DNA from: Acidobacteriota bacterium
GTDB lineage: Bacteria > Actinomycetota > Acidimicrobiia > Acidimicrobiales > RAAP-2
NCBI GenBank assembly: GCA_019352095.1
Contig: JABBNY010000005.1
Coordinates: forward strand, 1-36,021
Direction of reading: 5' to 3'
Length of the DNA: 36,021 nucleotides
The position numbers were made by a program, and so were the translations under genes. Positions 7,458-14,953 of this stretch are shown piece by piece (position 1 is the stretch's first letter; each line of letters starts with the position of its first letter). The notes under the pieces are model-generated. The model searched no databases. It saw nothing but the letters and a program-made list of their open reading frames with translations, and was not told the DNA's origin.

Positions 7458-7811
7458 CTAGAAGACGAGAATCTTGTCCGCGTCTACCGTGGCTTGCGTG
7501 AGCGCGTCCATGGTGCTTCGGAGCGCGCCTTCCAGCAAGTCATCCTGGGTCAAGCCGCGCGCATCCATGCACATACCGCACACGAGCACGGCGGCACCCT
7601 TTCGCGCAACGCTCGCCAACATGCGCTCCACGTTGTAGTAACCGTTCGGCGTCTGCCATCCCGACTTGGCGGCGCTCGCCGCATCGCCCATCAAGAACAC
7701 CGTCAACTCGACCTGCTCATGCTTGGCCTGCAGGTTCATGGCGAGTCGCAGTCCGTTGTAGACGCGCTCGGTTCCGTACGGGGGGTCATTGAGCACTATC
7801 AGAATCTTCAT
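7458..7811 (-). CDS. DsrE/DsrF-like family protein
   Basis: MKILIVLNDPPYGTERVYNGLRLAMNL...LTVFLMGDAASAAKSG...VLVCGMCMDARGL. Confidence 0.88.
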   Translation of the reverse strand: MKILIVLNDPPYGTERVYNGLRLAMNLQAKHEQVELTVFLMGDAASAAKSGWQTPNGYYNVERMLASVARKGAAVLVCGMCMDARGLTQDDLLEGALRSTMDALTQATVDADKILVF

Positions 7812-7847
7812 TATTTTATGCCTTTCATCGGGGGGAAACGTCGTACA

Positions 7848-8531
7848 TCAAGTGGTCGCCTGGGGACTCGTCGCCGCGGTCACGTAGACGCGAGAACGGT
7901 TCCACTCCAAGGGCCCTTCACTGAGCCGGTGTGCCCGCAGTCCGGCCCGACGTAGCTGTGCCACCGCTTCAGCGGCGAAGACGCAGTACGGGCCACGACA
8001 GTACGCAACAACTGTCGTGTCACGATCCAGTTCACCAAGGCGTTGCGACAACTCGTCGAGGGGGATACTGAGTGCGCCGAGCAGGTGGCCCGCATTGAAC
8101 TCCACGCGCGGACGAACGTCGATAATGACCACTTCGCCGTCACGACTGAGGTTCACCAACTCGTCAATCCCAATCGATTGGGTGCCGCCCACATCTTCAA
8201 AGAAGGCGGTGGCCAGTTGTCGCACTTCAGCTATCCGAGACTCGGCTACGTGGCGCAGTGCCCAGTACCCTTCGAGCACGGCCTCATCGGCGATTCGATA
8301 CAAGACGAAATTGCCCTCACGACGCGCCGTCACCAGTCCGGCCTGTCGCAGTACCTGCAGGTGGCGAGACGTATTGGCCACCGTCATCGCGGTCGCCTCG
8401 GCAATCGCTTCGACAGACCGGTCAGCCTGGGCGAGGACGTCAATCACCTTAAGACGCTTCACGCTGCCGAGCGCCGCACCGACGCGCGCCAACTGTTCGA
8501 AGATCGCGCTCTTGAAATCTCGCTCGTCCAT
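7848..8531 (-). CDS. ArsR-family HTH / rhodanese-domain fusion regulator
   Basis: N-terminal wHTH (LKVIDVLAQADRSVEAIAEATAMTVANTSRHLQVLRQAGLVTARREGNFVLYRIAD) fused to rhodanese (VVIIDVRPRVEFNAGHLLGALSIPLDEL...VVAYCRGPYCVFAAEAVAQLRRAG). Start taken as ATG 8531 (MDERDF); the ORF track start at 8546 is a TTG. Confidence 0.92.
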   Translation of the reverse strand: MDERDFKSAIFEQLARVGAALGSVKRLKVIDVLAQADRSVEAIAEATAMTVANTSRHLQVLRQAGLVTARREGNFVLYRIADEAVLEGYWALRHVAESRIAEVRQLATAFFEDVGGTQSIGIDELVNLSRDGEVVIIDVRPRVEFNAGHLLGALSIPLDELSQRLGELDRDTTVVAYCRGPYCVFAAEAVAQLRRAGLRAHRLSEGPLEWNRSRVYVTAATSPQATT

Positions 8532-8532
8532 G

Positions 8533-8568
8533 GGTGCTCCATTCAATCAATCAATTGAATGGAGCACC
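8533..8568 (-). promoter_or_regulatory. 15-bp-arm inverted repeat at the 5' UTR of the ArsR-rhodanese gene (operator and/or RBS-sequestering hairpin)
   Basis: GGTGCTCCATTCAAT-caatca-ATTGAATGGAGCACC with perfect arms. On the minus strand the 3' arm contains GGAG 5 nt before the ATG at 8531. Confidence 0.8.
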
Positions 8569-8633: not shown

Positions 8634-9467
8634 CTAGAACTCGCCGTAGATCACGAAACCACCCGGCTCTCGCTGCTTTGATTCGTACATCGCCGCATCC
8701 GCCGCGGCCACCACGGCGTCAGCGTTCGTAAACGAGCCCGGGCCCATTGCGAGGCCCAAACTGCACGTCACGCTGCGCCATTGGTTAGCAATGTCATACG
8801 GCTCACCTAAGACTTCGCTCAACCGGTCGACCACGACAAGTGCTGCGTCTCGTGTCGCGACCTCGTCGAGCAGTACCAAGAACTCATCGCCGCCCACGCG
8901 CGCGGCGCTGTCGCCTGCCCGCAACACGCTTCGTATCCTCGCCGCGACATCGATCAACAATTCATCGCCTATTGCGTGACCCAAGGTGTCGTTGACCACT
9001 TTGAACTGGTCGAGATCAACGAAGATGACCGCGAACCCCGAGCGACGCCGGTCGTTCAGGATCATTCGATGCGACAACCGGTCCCAAAAGAGGGTCCGGT
9101 TCGCGAGACCCGTCAAGTCATCATGCAATGCCCGCCGGGTCAGCTCCTGGGTGATGACACCAAGCTCTGCCGTTCGATCTGCGACCTTGCGTTCGACTTC
9201 GCTGTAGGACGCTTCGAGCTCCTCGCCGAGGAAGTTGACGCCCGCCGCAACGGCGTCGATGACGTCACCGAGGTCGCTGATCGAGGCGCGCGCACTGAAA
9301 TCGAGCGTCGCGAACAATTGGATCGTGGTGGTGATCTCCTCGAGTCGCTGCTCGATGTCGTGGATGCGCTCAATCTGCTGATCGGCCAGCGGCTTGTACA
9401 GCAGGGGCTCCAACGTGTGCGGTGCGTGCCCCGCTGGTGCGTCACCGGTTTCGGGCGTCGTGGTCAT
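8634..9467 (-). CDS. GGDEF-domain diguanylate cyclase (soluble) with RxxD I-site
   Basis: DDLTGLANRTLFWDRL ... FKVVNDTLGHAIGDELL ... RAGDSAARVGGDEFLVLL. Start ATG 9467 overlaps the upstream stop (ATGA). Confidence 0.92.
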   Translation of the reverse strand: MTTTPETGDAPAGHAPHTLEPLLYKPLADQQIERIHDIEQRLEEITTTIQLFATLDFSARASISDLGDVIDAVAAGVNFLGEELEASYSEVERKVADRTAELGVITQELTRRALHDDLTGLANRTLFWDRLSHRMILNDRRRSGFAVIFVDLDQFKVVNDTLGHAIGDELLIDVAARIRSVLRAGDSAARVGGDEFLVLLDEVATRDAALVVVDRLSEVLGEPYDIANQWRSVTCSLGLAMGPGSFTNADAVVAAADAAMYESKQREPGGFVIYGEF

Positions 9468-9865
9468 GGCGCACGTCCCTTCAGCCACGCGATCGCGGCG
9501 CCTTCGTCCTCGAAGAGTCTGGTCTCAACCAGTGGCTTGCTGACCGCAACGAAGAAGTTGCCCATCAAGCGACTGAGCGGGGTGGTGACGATGAGCGCCA
9601 CGCCGGACACCAGATCACCGTGGCTGACGAACTCGTTGCGCGCGGCGCGGTCCTGAGAGCCAAGCGCGCTGGCGTCCACCAAAAGGGGTGCGCGCTGTCC
9701 ACCCGTGAGCGTTGAGAATGCCTTGATCGACGCAACCGCGTCCTCGAGACGAAGTTCACGAGTGGGCGCCCAGACGAGTTGGACGATGCCGTCGGGTCGA
9801 AGCCACATCCGGAACTTCGGATGATCGAACTCGGTCGACTCGTTCGCCATCAGGGTCTCCGTCAT
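9464..9865 (-). CDS. STAS/SpoIIAA-like small protein
   Basis: 133 aa; pattern RPDGIVQLVWAPTRELRLEDAVASIKAFSTLTGGQRAPLLVDASAL...RNEFVSH...VALIVTTPLSRLMGNFFVAVSKP resembles the SpoIIAA/STAS-like group; 4-bp overlap with the GGDEF gene. Confidence 0.6.
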   Translation of the reverse strand: MTETLMANESTEFDHPKFRMWLRPDGIVQLVWAPTRELRLEDAVASIKAFSTLTGGQRAPLLVDASALGSQDRAARNEFVSHGDLVSGVALIVTTPLSRLMGNFFVAVSKPLVETRLFEDEGAAIAWLKGRAP

Positions 9866-10023
9866 CGCTGCTTCCGGTCACTTCGCTTCTCAGTGCGCCT
9901 CCAAACCGAGCATACCCAAGGTCTCCTCCCCCGACGGATGCAGGTCGACCGATCACGTCTGAATCAATGAGGTGCCAATTCTGGAGAGGTATCCAGCGCG
10001 CAGCGCTCGCGCTAGCAACGCTC

Positions 10024-10494
10024 TCAGCCGTCGAAGCTGTCGGGTGCAGCGACGCCCAACTCAACGAGTAATTCGAGGACTCGGTGTTCGATGTCGTCAA
10101 TAATGCGTTGCACGGTGTCGCGGTCTTGACCGGCGGGGTCCTCGACCTCCCAGTCGAGATACCTCTTGCCGGGAAAGAACGGACACGTCTCGCCACAGCC
10201 CATCGTGACCACCACGTCCGCGACGCTCACGAGCTGTGAGGTGAGCAGCGTCGGCACTTCGAGCTCGGTACTGAGCCCACGATCGCGCAGCACCGCCGCC
10301 ACCTGAGGATTGACGTTCGAACCTGGCTCAGAACCCGCAGAGCGAACATCAACCCGTCCCTTCGCGAAGTGTTCGGTCAGCACCTTGGCCGCAACCGAAC
10401 GTCCCGAATTGTGGATGCACGCGAAGAGCACGACTGGACGCTCGTGTGATGACTGACCTGCGTCGAGCGGGCTATGTGGGATTTGAGCGTTCAC
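10024..10494 (-). CDS. arsC: Arsenate reductase, low-MW protein tyrosine phosphatase family
   Basis: VLFACIHNSGRSVAAKVLTEHFA P-loop, VVTMGCGETCPFFPGKRYLDWEVEDPAGQ. GTG start overlaps the ACR3 stop (GTGA). Confidence 0.93.
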   Translation of the reverse strand: MNAQIPHSPLDAGQSSHERPVVLFACIHNSGRSVAAKVLTEHFAKGRVDVRSAGSEPGSNVNPQVAAVLRDRGLSTELEVPTLLTSQLVSVADVVVTMGCGETCPFFPGKRYLDWEVEDPAGQDRDTVQRIIDDIEHRVLELLVELGVAAPDSFDG

Positions 10495-11594
10495 GTGGGG
10501 GTTTCTCCTTCGCGAGCATAGAAGTGTCGGCGAACCCAGAGTGAGACGTAGACGAGGCCGACAAGCGCGGGGACTTCAATCAACGGTCCAACCACTCCCG
10601 CGAGCGCCTGACCCGAGGTGACTCCGAAGGTACCGATCGCGACCGCTATCGCCAGTTCGAAATTGTTGCCCGCCGCCGTGAAGGCCAGGGTCGCCGTTCG
10701 CGCGTACGAGAGTCCGAGCGAGCGGCCTGCGACGAATGACACCCCCCACATGATCGCAAAGTAACAGAGCAACGGTAGGGCGATGCGCGCTACGTCCAGC
10801 GGGTGATGCGTGATGGCGCTGCCTTGGAGCGCGAAGAGAATCACGATGGTGAACAGCAGTCCATAAAGGGCGAAAGGGCCAATGCGCGGAAGGAAACGAT
10901 GCTCGTACCACTCGCGACCTTTCGCCCTTTCACCCAAAGTGCGCGTGAGGTACCCCGCCACCAGTGGGATACCGAGAAAGATGAGCACACTTCGCGCAAT
11001 GGACCACACCGACACGTGCACTTCGGCCGTCGAGAGGCCGAGCCACGACGGCAGAATACGCAAGTAGAAGTAACCAAGTCCAGCGAATGCGACGATCTGA
11101 AAGACCGAGTTGATCGCGACGAGTACGGCTGCGGCGGTCGCGTCGCCACACGCGAGGTCGTTCCAGATCAGGACCATGGCAATACAACGCGCCAGACCGA
11201 CCAAGATAAGTCCGGTTCGGTATGCGGGCAGGTCCGGCAGGAACACCCAGGCCAAGGTGAACATCAACGCCGGGCCAACGATCCAGTTGAGCACGAGCGA
11301 TGGAATAAGCATGCGCCGGTCAGTCGTGACGCGGCTGATCTCGCCGTAGCGTACCTTGGCGAGTACCGGGTACATCATGATGAGTAGACCGAGTGCAATG
11401 GGCAGACTGGTGCCGGTGATCTGCACGCGATCGAGCGTGCGATTAAGACCAGGTTCCACGCGACCGAGACCAATCCCCACCACCATGGCCACGCCGATCC
11501 ACACGGGCAGGAATCGGTTCAGCAGCGACAACCGGGCTGCCACGGGTGCACCAGTGTCGATGCCCTGGGTGGCGTGAGTCGTCGACTCGCTCAT
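10491..11594 (-). CDS. acr3: ACR3-family arsenite efflux transporter
   Basis: LPIALGLLIMMYPVLAKVRYGEI, PSLVLNWIVGPALMFTLAWVFL, FTAAGNNFELAIAVAIGTFGVTSGQALAGVVGPLIEVPALVGLVYV are diagnostic of ACR3. Confidence 0.95.
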   Translation of the reverse strand: MSESTTHATQGIDTGAPVAARLSLLNRFLPVWIGVAMVVGIGLGRVEPGLNRTLDRVQITGTSLPIALGLLIMMYPVLAKVRYGEISRVTTDRRMLIPSLVLNWIVGPALMFTLAWVFLPDLPAYRTGLILVGLARCIAMVLIWNDLACGDATAAAVLVAINSVFQIVAFAGLGYFYLRILPSWLGLSTAEVHVSVWSIARSVLIFLGIPLVAGYLTRTLGERAKGREWYEHRFLPRIGPFALYGLLFTIVILFALQGSAITHHPLDVARIALPLLCYFAIMWGVSFVAGRSLGLSYARTATLAFTAAGNNFELAIAVAIGTFGVTSGQALAGVVGPLIEVPALVGLVYVSLWVRRHFYAREGETPT

Positions 11595-11677
11595 TTCGAC
11601 ACTCGCGGTGAGCGTGAAGAGTGCACACCTACAGCAACGACACCACTACCCATTGACACGCCTCGACTCCATTAATA

Positions 11678-11734
11678 GATTGATGAACTTGAATCTAACA
11701 GAAGTGCCGCCACATATTCATGATTATCAATGAA
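11678..11734. promoter_or_regulatory. Putative ArsR-type operator dyads upstream of acr3
   Basis: Imperfect dyad GATTGATGAACTTGAATC (11678-11695) and TTCATgattatcaATGAA (11717-11734, with inner TGAT-t-ATCA), in the gap upstream of acr3. Confidence 0.45.
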
Positions 11735-11857
11735 ACAGTGAGCCTCGCGTGTAACCGTGCCCGAAGTGAGAAGTGCTTCGACAGGTCACTATTTCGCCCA
11801 CCCCGCTCGCCATTCAATCTGTTCCAAGCGGTGTGGAACGGTCCCCGCTGCGCCAGC

Positions 11858-12649
11858 TCAGTTGGGACCCTGTAGATAGCGCGCACTCCACGCACCGATC
11901 GTCAGTTCGTCGGCGACCGGGTTGTGCACGGTCGGATCATCCGGGCCTGACAAGGTGATCGGCGCGGGGACCAAGCGATTGAGGGTGTCGCTGCGGCGCG
12001 CTTCGAAGAGGGGTGCGGGCAGTTCCAGATGATCCAGTTCGCACGCGAGGTAGTGGTCGCGCGGGGTGCTCGGGAGCAATTGCTCGCGCACCCAGTCCCA
12101 CTGGGCCGCTTCGTGCACCGCGAGCAGCTCGCGCTTGTCACTCTCGGGTATCTCGTCGTTCAAGAGCGCCGCTTCCCACCTGATGATCACGTCGGGAAAG
12201 AATCCGGCCTCTTCACGGACCTCCCAGGTCCTTTCGGTGGACAATTGTTTGAGTTGGAATCCCACGCCGAGCGCGTCGTCGAGTCGGTGCGTGCCAAAGC
12301 GCGAGCGGGCGCCGGTGAGGTAGGCGGCCACGTCACCCAGGCACGGGGAATTCTTCGATATGACCATCAGATCACTGCGATCGATCGGTGCGTCGGCGAA
12401 CGCGAGATCAAAGAGGGCGCGCATTGCCCACACGCCACGCAACAGCCCGTCGCACGCGTGCCCGTGCGCGAGGACGAGATCACTCACCCTCACCGTCTTG
12501 GCGCGTACATCAAGACGGCCCTGTGCCGAGCGGGTATCGAGCACTTCAAAACTGGGCAGCGTCGCATCATCGAGCCACTGCGCCAGTGACCACGTCGGGA
12601 CGTCGAACGTCGCAGTGAATTCGGGCCCTGGCACCATCGCGTCGCTCAC
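11858..12649 (-). CDS. FmdE-like (formylmethanofuran dehydrogenase subunit E family-like) protein
   Basis: VLAHGHACDGLLRGVWAMRALFD ... DLMVISKNSPCLGDVAAYLTGARSRFGTHRLDD matches the HGHxCxG...C...D...LTG...G layout of FmdE-like domains. GTG start 4 nt after the DsrE stop. Confidence 0.62.
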   Translation of the reverse strand: MSDAMVPGPEFTATFDVPTWSLAQWLDDATLPSFEVLDTRSAQGRLDVRAKTVRVSDLVLAHGHACDGLLRGVWAMRALFDLAFADAPIDRSDLMVISKNSPCLGDVAAYLTGARSRFGTHRLDDALGVGFQLKQLSTERTWEVREEAGFFPDVIIRWEAALLNDEIPESDKRELLAVHEAAQWDWVREQLLPSTPRDHYLACELDHLELPAPLFEARRSDTLNRLVPAPITLSGPDDPTVHNPVADELTIGAWSARYLQGPN

Positions 12650-12653
12650 GATC

Positions 12654-13010
12654 TCAGAACGTCAACACCGTCGCACCCTCGAGCGCGTAGCGCACGAAGG
12701 CATCGCGTGCGAACTCGAGTGTGATGCCCCGAGCGAGGAGTGCTTCCTCGGTCCCCTGGGCTCGAGCAGCGTTGACACAGGCACCCACGCGAACACCCGC
12801 GCTCACGAGCTCATCAATTTGCTGGTTGTACTCGCTCAGGACCGTCGATTCTCCCGACCGGCTCAATGCGCCCTGACCGGGGCCGAAACAGAACACCTCG
12901 AGTTCGACGCCCTGCTCACCCGCAACCTGACGGATGCGTTCTGCGACGTGTGAGCCTGCCGACAACGAATCGTCGTCGCCGTGAAAGAGATGAATAACGG
13001 ATGTGGCCAT
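12654..13010 (-). CDS. DsrE family protein
   Basis: MATSVIHLFHGDDDSLSAGSHVAERIRQVAGEQGVELEVFCFGPGQGAL...IDELVSAGVRVGACVNAARAQG, a DsrE-like pattern with the conserved C-N region. Confidence 0.8.
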   Translation of the reverse strand: MATSVIHLFHGDDDSLSAGSHVAERIRQVAGEQGVELEVFCFGPGQGALSRSGESTVLSEYNQQIDELVSAGVRVGACVNAARAQGTEEALLARGITLEFARDAFVRYALEGATVLTF

Positions 13011-13074
13011 GATGTCGTGCTCCTTTGGAACTAGGTGGTGGGTAAGACTGCGCTCGATTGTGGTGCGACGAACG

Positions 13075-13524
13075 TCAACAGCACGCGGCGGGCTTCGCGG
13101 AGATGCTCAACCGCTCGGGGACACAGCACAATTCATCCTCCGTCGCGCTCTCGCTCGCGGGTACGTCCGAGAGCACCGTGTAGACCTCCCAACGAGACCC
13201 GTCGGGACCATCGACCCACACCTTGTTCTGGACAGCGTGCCAACACGACGTCTGTACTTCAATGTCGGTTTCGAAGCCTTGGTCGGAGAGGTACGTCGTC
13301 GCGTCGACCACCTCTTCGCTCGAAAAGACCTCCACGCCGAGGTGGTTGATCGTTCCGGGCGCCTCGAGGTTCTCGAAGAGCACCAACTTGAGCGGCGGCT
13401 CGGCAATTGCGAAGTTGGCGTAGCCGGCGCGTACTTTGGCCGGTTCGGTCTTGAAGAATGCCGTATAGAAGGAAACTGCTTCTTCGAGGTTGGACACATT
13501 GAGCGCCAATTGCAGTCGTGACAT
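13075..13524 (-). CDS. ArsI/CadI family VOC (glyoxalase-fold) metal/metalloid resistance protein
   Basis: MSRLQLALNVSNLEEAVSFYTAFFKTEPAKVRAGYANFAIAEPPLKLVLFEN...INHLGVEVFS...VWVDGPDGSRWEVYTVL, with Cys-rich C-terminus (LCC...AACC). Confidence 0.92.
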   Translation of the reverse strand: MSRLQLALNVSNLEEAVSFYTAFFKTEPAKVRAGYANFAIAEPPLKLVLFENLEAPGTINHLGVEVFSSEEVVDATTYLSDQGFETDIEVQTSCWHAVQNKVWVDGPDGSRWEVYTVLSDVPASESATEDELCCVPERLSISAKPAACC

Positions 13525-13537
13525 GGAGTCCTCTCAA

Positions 13538-13588
13538 ATTGATGTATGTCAATGAAAGAGGTTACCCCGCTCATCGATGATTGTCAAT
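13538..13588. promoter_or_regulatory. Divergent arsR/arsI-like intergenic region with ATTGA-N6-TCAAT and ATTG-T-CAAT dyads
   Basis: ATTGAtgtatgTCAAT at 13538-13553 and ATTGtCAAT at 13580-13588, between divergently transcribed genes. Confidence 0.55.
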
Positions 13589-13603
13589 ACTAAGATGGTC
13601 GGT

Positions 13604-13948
13604 ATGGCGCAACACAAGACAATTACCGTGAACGCCGACGTGGTGGCGTGTTGCAGTCCACTCGCGCACGTGGAGATGTCCGAAGCCGAAGCATCCGACA
13701 TCGCCCAGATTTTCTCCGCGTTGAGCGATCCCGTGCGACTCCGGATGCTCTCGATGATCGCGTCGGAATCCGAGGTGTGTAGTTGCGCGTTGGAAGAACC
13801 GCTCTCCAAGAGTCAACCGACAATCTCACACCACACCCGCATACTCGCCGAAGCCGGCCTCATCATTGGAGAACGTCGAGGTCGTTGGATGTGGTGGCGC
13901 GCGGCGCCCGATCGAATGCGCGACATTGCGAGAATCCTCAGCGCCTGA
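13604..13948 (+). CDS. arsR: ArsR/SmtB-family metalloregulator
   Basis: VVACCSPLAHVEMSEAEASDIAQIFSALSDPVRLRMLSMIASESEVCSCALEEPLSKSQPTISHHTRILAEAGLIIGERRGRWMWW. The N-terminal CC plus later Cys resembles CgArsR-type As(III) sites. Confidence 0.93.
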   Translation: MAQHKTITVNADVVACCSPLAHVEMSEAEASDIAQIFSALSDPVRLRMLSMIASESEVCSCALEEPLSKSQPTISHHTRILAEAGLIIGERRGRWMWWRAAPDRMRDIARILSA

Positions 13949-14032
13949 GAGTGCGTGTTCTTCGCACGAACCCGTTCCCTCGTCGAGTGAGCCCGTGGCG
14001 CGTACGATGAGCGAGTCAGCACTGGGAGCCCC

Positions 14033-14953
14033 GTGAACGAACCACATCAACACGAGCACGCCGTCGTGTCACGCGACACCGATATGCGCCTCGTGCTCGT
14101 CGCGCTCGCACTGATCACGTCATTCTTGGTTGCGGAATTCGTCACCGCCGTCCTCGATAACTCTCTCGCGCTCTACGCCGACTCCGGCCATATGCTCACC
14201 GACGTCGCCGCGCTGGCCTTGAGCGCGTGGGCCATCCACCTCGCCGGGAGGCCATCGAACATCAAGTGGACGTTCGGCCTCAAGCGAGCTGAGATCCTCG
14301 CGGCGCTCGCCAATGGCGTGACGCTCGCAGCCATTGGCCTCTTCATAACGGTCGAGGCGATCCAACGTCTCATCACGCCCCACCACGTGGCCGGTTCGCC
14401 ATTGCTGATTGTGGCGATCATCGGCGCCGCAGTGAATATCATTGCGGCCTGGACGCTCGCGAAGGCGAATCAGTCCAGTCTTAACGTGCGAGCGGTCTCG
14501 GCGCACATCATGACCGACTTGTACGCGTTCATTGGTACCGCGGCGGCGGGTGTCGTGATCATTGGCACCCACTGGGTGCGAGCCGACGCGGTCGCGTCGC
14601 TCTTTGTAGCGGCCCTCATGGCGCGAAGTTCGTGGGGGTTACTACGCGACGCGGGCAGAATCCTGCTCGAGGCGACACCCGATGCATTGGTGTTGGGTGA
14701 CGTGCGCGACCACCTGCTCGAAGTGCCCCACGTCCTTGACGTACACGACCTTCACGCGTGGACCGTGACCTCAGGCCTGGTCGCGATGTCCGCGCACGTC
14801 GTTGTCGAGGACCACTGCTTCTCGAGCGGACACGCTCCCCAGGTCCTCGACGCGCTCCAGGAGTGCCTCGCCACTCACTTTGCCATCGAGCACGCGACGT
14901 TCCAACTCGAACCAACCGCCCACTTCACCCACGAAGACGGCCTTCACCCCTGA
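14033..14953 (+). CDS. Cation diffusion facilitator (CDF) family transporter
   Basis: FVTAVLDNSLALYADSGHMLTDVAALALSAWAIHLA; NVRAVSAHIMTDLYAFIGTAAAGVVI; six TMs; C-terminal cytoplasmic domain VLDVHDLHAWTVTSG. GTG start. Confidence 0.93.
   Translation: MNEPHQHEHAVVSRDTDMRLVLVALALITSFLVAEFVTAVLDNSLALYADSGHMLTDVAALALSAWAIHLAGRPSNIKWTFGLKRAEILAALANGVTLAAIGLFITVEAIQRLITPHHVAGSPLLIVAIIGAAVNIIAAWTLAKANQSSLNVRAVSAHIMTDLYAFIGTAAAGVVIIGTHWVRADAVASLFVAALMARSSWGLLRDAGRILLEATPDALVLGDVRDHLLEVPHVLDVHDLHAWTVTSGLVAMSAHVVVEDHCFSSGHAPQVLDALQECLATHFAIEHATFQLEPTAHFTHEDGLHP

Follow-up and report, generated by a model that had tools for sequence, protein, structure and literature searches.

The window analysed here, which is the whole stretch of 36,021 nucleotides, derives from a draft genome of 2.87 Mb in 308 contigs (89% complete) and contains an ars locus at positions 10024–14953. 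In this locus arsR (13577–13948, + strand) diverges from an arsI/cadI-type VOC gene (13075–13524), which is followed on the − strand by dsrE (12654–13010, 118 amino acids), fmdE (11858–12649, 263 amino acids, GTG start), acr3 for an arsenite efflux permease (10491–11594) and arsC for an arsenate reductase (10024–10494). The dsrE stop codon and the fmdE start codon are separated by a 4 nt gap; this spacing, the limits of the open reading frames and the divergence from arsR were reproduced exactly as they appear in an earlier note on this DNA. The true start of arsR is probably at 13604, judging from the corresponding gene in locus L007. A CDF cation efflux gene (14033–14953, + strand) was recognized by a profile match 3′ of arsR; it is syntenic in L006 and L007 and possibly belongs to the same regulon.

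Pfam searches over the locus returned FmdE, DsrE, glyoxalase/VOC, HTH_5, SBF and LMWPc. Against NCBIfam, the VOC protein scored 174 bits with ArsI_CadI_VOC (NF041414; cut-off 116) and the permease 438 bits with the ACR3 model (TIGR00832; cut-off 283). The ArsR/SmtB repressor, which has an N-terminal Cys-Cys and a CSC motif, exceeded the cut-off of the general model HTH_metalloreg only (NF033788; 82.6 versus 55). ArsC fell under every NCBIfam arsenate-reductase cut-off, yet gave a clear match to the low-molecular-weight phosphatase fold (PF01451, E = 7.8e-18). Pairwise dN/dS values were about 0.03–0.09 for dsrE and 0.14–0.21 for fmdE, ratios at which both genes are judged to be under purifying selection. 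No match was obtained in an Rfam search of 9900–14100, and a promoter/terminator consensus scan gave matches at chance level. Directly 3′ of arsC, GGDEF-like and DUF7793 proteins are encoded at 8634–9865 (− strand; syntenic in L007, 75–81% identity). About 1.5 kb past arsC, region 7458–8546 (− strand) holds a second DsrE-family gene (117 amino acids, PF02635, E = 2.9e-23), located 36 nt 3′ of an ArsR–rhodanese fusion gene. L007 has this second DsrE in synteny (92% identity) but lacks the ArsR–rhodanese gene there; the window region is a possible further sulfur-transfer unit near the ars locus.

Three ArsR-operator-like sites were located, two in the arsR–arsI interval and one upstream of acr3: site 1, TTGATGTATGTCAATG (13539–13554, +), in the arsI-dsrE-fmdE promoter, with a counterpart at the same position in L006 and L007; site 2, TCGATGATTGTCAATA (13574–13589, +), in the arsR promoter; and site 3, TTCATGATTATCAATG (11717–11732, +), in the acr3-arsC promoter and retained ahead of acr3 in both L006 and L007. 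The motif TNRATGATTRTCAATR occurred three times in the window at no more than two mismatches (shuffled sequences: mean 0.16, none with three), and genome-wide its zero- and one-mismatch matches were confined to the ars sites of the window, site 3 being the only one-mismatch match; these counts are partly circular because the motif was derived from the same sites. Conservation is free of this circularity, and in L006 and L007 all three places are kept, though not without differences. In the arsDA loci tested, whose ArsR proteins are different, the motif was absent. With the operator-like motif at both ars promoters, co-regulation of dsrE-fmdE by ArsR is probable.

The closest PDB relative of the VOC protein is the C–As lyase ArsI of Thermomonospora curvata (5c4p and relatives; E = 2e-35), with which it shares the metal ligands and a Lys. 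Alignment to 5dfg placed the Fe(II) ligands at Q5, H61 and E113, corresponding to the Gln/His/Glu set of ArsI (PMC12607644). The second substrate Cys of the T. curvata enzyme is replaced by Trp: the vicinal pair reads C94-W95 (TGT TGG) in the window and Cys-Cys in L006 and L007, where the codon at 13240–13242 (TGG in the window) is TGT. Both vicinal Cys residues of ArsI are required for substrate binding, according to a review (PMC12607644). The description of this protein as ArsI/CadI-type thus stands as regards the NF041414 match and the metal ligands, but one of the two vicinal Cys residues is missing. The window copy may lack the capacity to cleave organoarsenicals or may have a different ligand; alternatively, the TGG at the C95W codon may be an assembly error. 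The role of dsrE-fmdE is independent of this Cys-to-Trp change.

The FmdE-like protein matched PF02663 with 38.6 bits (cut-off 22.9, E = 1.3e-9) over its core domain, residues 62–147. AlphaFold models of FmdE and DsrE were built from subfamily alignments and compared with the PDB by Foldseek. For FmdE (pLDDT 78) the top matches were the FmdE-family structures 2glz and 3d00 (probability 0.98–0.99), with modest E-values (4e-3 to 6.5e-3) and TM-scores (0.30–0.34 by query, 0.41–0.55 by target) probably because the core domain alone matches; no other credible match was found in the PDB. A fold search was required because sequence searches of PDB chains gave no match with the single protein and none that was credible with a profile. 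The FmdE fold proposed in the earlier note was recovered by two routes, Pfam and structure comparison. Residues H62, H64, C66 and C103 correspond to the four metal ligands of the FmdE crystal structures, in which a permuted thioredoxin-like domain holds Zn or Ni by His-x-His-x-Cys and a second Cys (PMC2954224); the core fold is shared with 2glz and 3d00, as are the HGHxC motif and the second Cys, which form a His2Cys2 metal site. The four ligands were invariant in 13 members of the subfamily and in 16 members of a wider alignment that reaches down to 15–22% identity. The subfamily proteins have no C-terminal zinc finger, lacking CxxC pairs there, unlike L037–L042; proteins limited to the core also count as family members. 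The window protein is the sole PF02663 match in its draft genome, and unlike FmdE of the formylmethanofuran dehydrogenase operon its gene adjoins ars genes, not fmd/fwd, at the locus. Four distantly related FmdE genes of actinobacteria (L037, L038, L039 and L041), whose products end in zinc-finger-like Cys tails, adjoin clusters whose gene sizes suggest peptide/nickel-type ABC transporters. Crystal structures of FmdE (PF02663) have been available since 2006–2010, and no established function was found in the literature.

The DsrE assignment was likewise confirmed by a match above the PF02635 cut-off (29.0 bits versus 22.7, E = 1.3e-6) and by the fold: the AlphaFold model (pLDDT 84.5) matched 2fb6, 1l1s (MTH1491), 2hy5 (DsrEFH) and 2d1p (TusBCD) with a Foldseek probability of 1.00, and YchN was also among the matches. 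The window protein did not reach the NCBIfam TusD/TusC models. Unlike DsrEFH and TusBCD, it is paired with FmdE alone: no TusB/TusC or DsrF/DsrH is encoded alongside it, the genes flanking the pair being ars genes, and it has its own C-terminal signature, LEFARDAFxRYAxEGxTVLTF. Cys78 is the single universally conserved Cys of these DsrE proteins, including that of Alicyclobacillus, and aligns with the conserved Cys of MTH1491 in an ACxN segment, a feature shared, like the fold, with TusD/DsrE (2d1p, 2hy5). A dithiol arsenic clamp formed by Cys41 and Cys78 was considered and rejected as a general feature, Cys41 being absent from Alicyclobacillus. That Cys78 and not Cys41 is kept into the Bacillota is what would be expected of a persulfide carrier and not of such a clamp. 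Proteins of the DsrE family are sulfur carriers, and by analogy Cys78 is a putative carrier of sulfane sulfur.

A scan of 84,980 species genomes yielded 13 loci, to which more genomes and one plasmid were added; after removal of duplicates 17 distinct intact loci remained. Genome G533 (L072 and contig C54) was left out, its fmdE and arsD matches both containing stop codons, which could reflect joint decay of the ars operon or an assembly error. The pair lay inside or beside ars genes at 15 of the 17 loci. Four layouts and two phyla are represented (Acidimicrobiia and an Alicyclobacillus plasmid), so that the ars linkage is recurrent; of the findings that the earlier note named as refuting its proposal, neither a missing FmdE fold nor a lack of recurrent linkage was thus encountered. 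At each intact locus of the subfamily, dsrE immediately precedes fmdE. The arrangement arsI-dsrE-fmdE-acr3-arsC was found in the window, L006 and L007; arsD-arsA-dsrE-fmdE in L008, L009, L010, L013–L018 and L071 (the L013 contig shows the end of arsA only); arsR-dsrE-fmdE-arsD-arsA-acr3-arsC in L043, from the same genus as the window; and arsD-arsA-arsA-dsrE-fmdE-arsR-arsB-arsC-arsC-trxB on the complete plasmid of Alicyclobacillus sp. SO9 (42% identity), whose DsrE is annotated as hypothetical, lies just under the Pfam cut-off and is 41% identical to that of the window. The association with an ArsI-type gene emphasized in the earlier note holds for three loci, but it is one local layout and arsD-arsA are the commoner partners. 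ArsA and ArsD were above the NCBIfam cut-off in the representatives tested. With ArsR, ArsD, ArsA, ACR3 or ArsB, and ArsC, these operons resemble the usual arsRDABC/acr3 sets and differ from them in two extra genes, dsrE and fmdE.

Two metagenome-assembled genomes carried two copies each (L006 with L008 and L007 with L009), both in ars operons with differing partners. In the tree the arsI clade, which had starred support, fell within the arsDA layout. This nesting, itself moderately supported, fits a change of partner with retention of the ars setting. DsrE and FmdE distances were correlated (Spearman 0.77; 0 of 2000 permutations as high), as expected of a jointly inherited pair. In plasmids, FmdE relatives were found in Alicyclobacillus and Sulfuricella only; viral contigs contained none. 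In L043 (4762–5598) ArsD is fused to an AhpD/carboxymuconolactone-decarboxylase-type domain (NF033727 and TIGR00778); similar ArsD-matching frames occur in L008, L014, L016, L018 and L071, and in Alicyclobacillus (L027) the AhpD-type domain is encoded by a gene of its own, which precedes arsD.

Among 397 genomes of the order, the FmdE subfamily was present in 8, ArsD in 17 and both in 7, from six genera; arsD accordingly occurred in 7 of 8 carriers and 10 of 389 non-carriers (Fisher p = 5e-10, kinship not corrected for). This rarity, and the absence of the pair from most arsD carriers, indicate that it is dispensable. At L011 and L012, from metagenome-assembled genomes titled 'Acidobacteria', dsrE-fmdE has no ars genes nearby and is flanked on one side by a methylmalonyl-CoA mutase gene, a typing made for L011 alone, and on the other by a MoeZ-like ThiF–rhodanese gene; neither full-length ACR3 nor canonical ArsA was found in these two genomes. 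FmdE of the Sulfuricella plasmid has no adjacent DsrE, and rhodanese and YeeE/YedE-type genes are present in the region. Its gene (L028, 11908–12636) encodes a lipoprotein-like signal, directly follows an F-type ATP synthase cluster and lies two genes before the rhodanese gene.

The pair is kept in ars operons through changes of partner, with the FmdE ligands and the DsrE carrier Cys retained, and dsrE-fmdE is very probably an ars accessory of some kind. That such a pair merely hitch-hikes, being unrelated to arsenic and riding on mobile ars clusters, would agree with its rare and patchy distribution and the two ars-free loci; it is nevertheless very improbable in view of the four layouts in two phyla, the two copies per genome in different ars operons, the operon-like spacing, the shared operator-like motif and the co-occurrence with arsD. 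For its chemistry our tentative preference, held at somewhat less than even confidence, is an arsenic-induced module acting before efflux. ArsR would switch on dsrE-fmdE, and the two products would process cytosolic arsenic ahead of export: FmdE would bind a metal or metalloid at His62/His64/Cys66/Cys103 and hand on or receive sulfane sulfur via Cys78 of DsrE, possibly desulfurating thioarsenicals. The preferred reaction would be As(V)–S + Cys-SH → As(III) + Cys-persulfide, by analogy with sulfur transfer from thiosulfate, and the arsenite thus released would be exported by ACR3 here and by ArsA-dependent or ArsB pumps elsewhere. Desulfuration is preferred to chaperoning of As(III) and to Zn/thiol repair because the carrier Cys is the only DsrE Cys kept into the Bacillota, because genes for sulfur transfer are among the neighbours outside ars operons and because monothioarsenate resembles thiosulfate, a similarity that has been argued (PMC6620896). 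The ars-free loci L011 and L012, the rarity of the pair, the lipoprotein-like Sulfuricella FmdE without an adjacent DsrE and a metal site known for Zn/Ni, not arsenic, count against the preferred module. A more specific form of it, a thioarsenical desulfurase in which the His2Cys2 site of FmdE binds thioarsenic, Cys78 takes the sulfur as a persulfide and arsenite passes to ArsA or ACR3, is doubtful.

The desulfuration, chaperone and repair readings are not firmly separated, hence the restrained confidence. A possible though unlikely alternative is an As(III)/Sb(III) metallochaperone resembling a second ArsD, with FmdE–DsrE thiolates binding trivalent arsenic and delivering it to ArsA or ACR3. 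It would account for the arsD-arsA genes that adjoin the pair in most loci and for the two conserved Cys residues in the solvent-exposed FmdE metal site, and PF02663 genes stand mostly beside metal-ion transporter genes (PMC2954224); but those operons already possess arsD, and arsA and arsD are both missing from the window; moreover, a site of two Cys and two His is better suited to Zn/Ni than to As(III), and Alicyclobacillus has not kept Cys41 of DsrE. The Zn/Ni bound by the same ligands in FmdE crystals, the sulfur-carrier character of the DsrE family and the occurrence of the pair away from ars genes (L011, L012) would suit a role in maintaining arsenite-damaged Zn-thiolate or Fe–S/sulfur-relay proteins, for instance as a carrier of Zn or persulfide, with arsenic itself untouched. 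We consider such repair rather unlikely, since general stress repair would need neither so very close a linkage to efflux genes nor retention across partner changes. The earlier note had put forward thioarsenical handling, sulfide supply and metal sequestration as hypothetical roles. In a supply of sulfide or persulfide, the same parts would work in the direction opposite to the preferred desulfuration and convert As(III) to thioarsenic species or sulfides, to be sequestered or exported. This is quite improbable, as the pair encodes no cysteine desulfurase or sulfide source and ACR3, ArsB and ArsA are arsenite systems.

The open-licence literature yielded no description of dsrE-fmdE in ars operons; an account elsewhere is possible, but the combination, whose novelty the earlier note could not judge, is apparently undescribed. 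In Pantoea a DsrE gene lies beside chromosomal arsC-like genes, which contribute nothing to resistance. A term search of a review of ars genes (PMC6205960) found no mention of sulfurtransferases or rhodaneses; the review states that mechanisms of thioarsenate resistance should exist but are so far unverified. At the present locus an ars operon carries a conserved pair of accessory genes that is apparently undescribed, and the linkage hints that a helper step in arsenic detoxification has been overlooked: arsenic resistance may include a sulfur-transfer or metalloid-carrier step that is missing from the usual list of ars genes. Tight ars linkage in two phyla, with carriers that include the named strain Ferrithrix thermotolerans DSM 19514 and an Alicyclobacillus strain, makes the role of FmdE testable, the first such role for this family. 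If the pair does act as a thioarsenical desulfurase, it would be the first step known in ars operons to be devoted to detoxifying thioarsenicals, and a function would for the first time be assigned to a bacterial FmdE.
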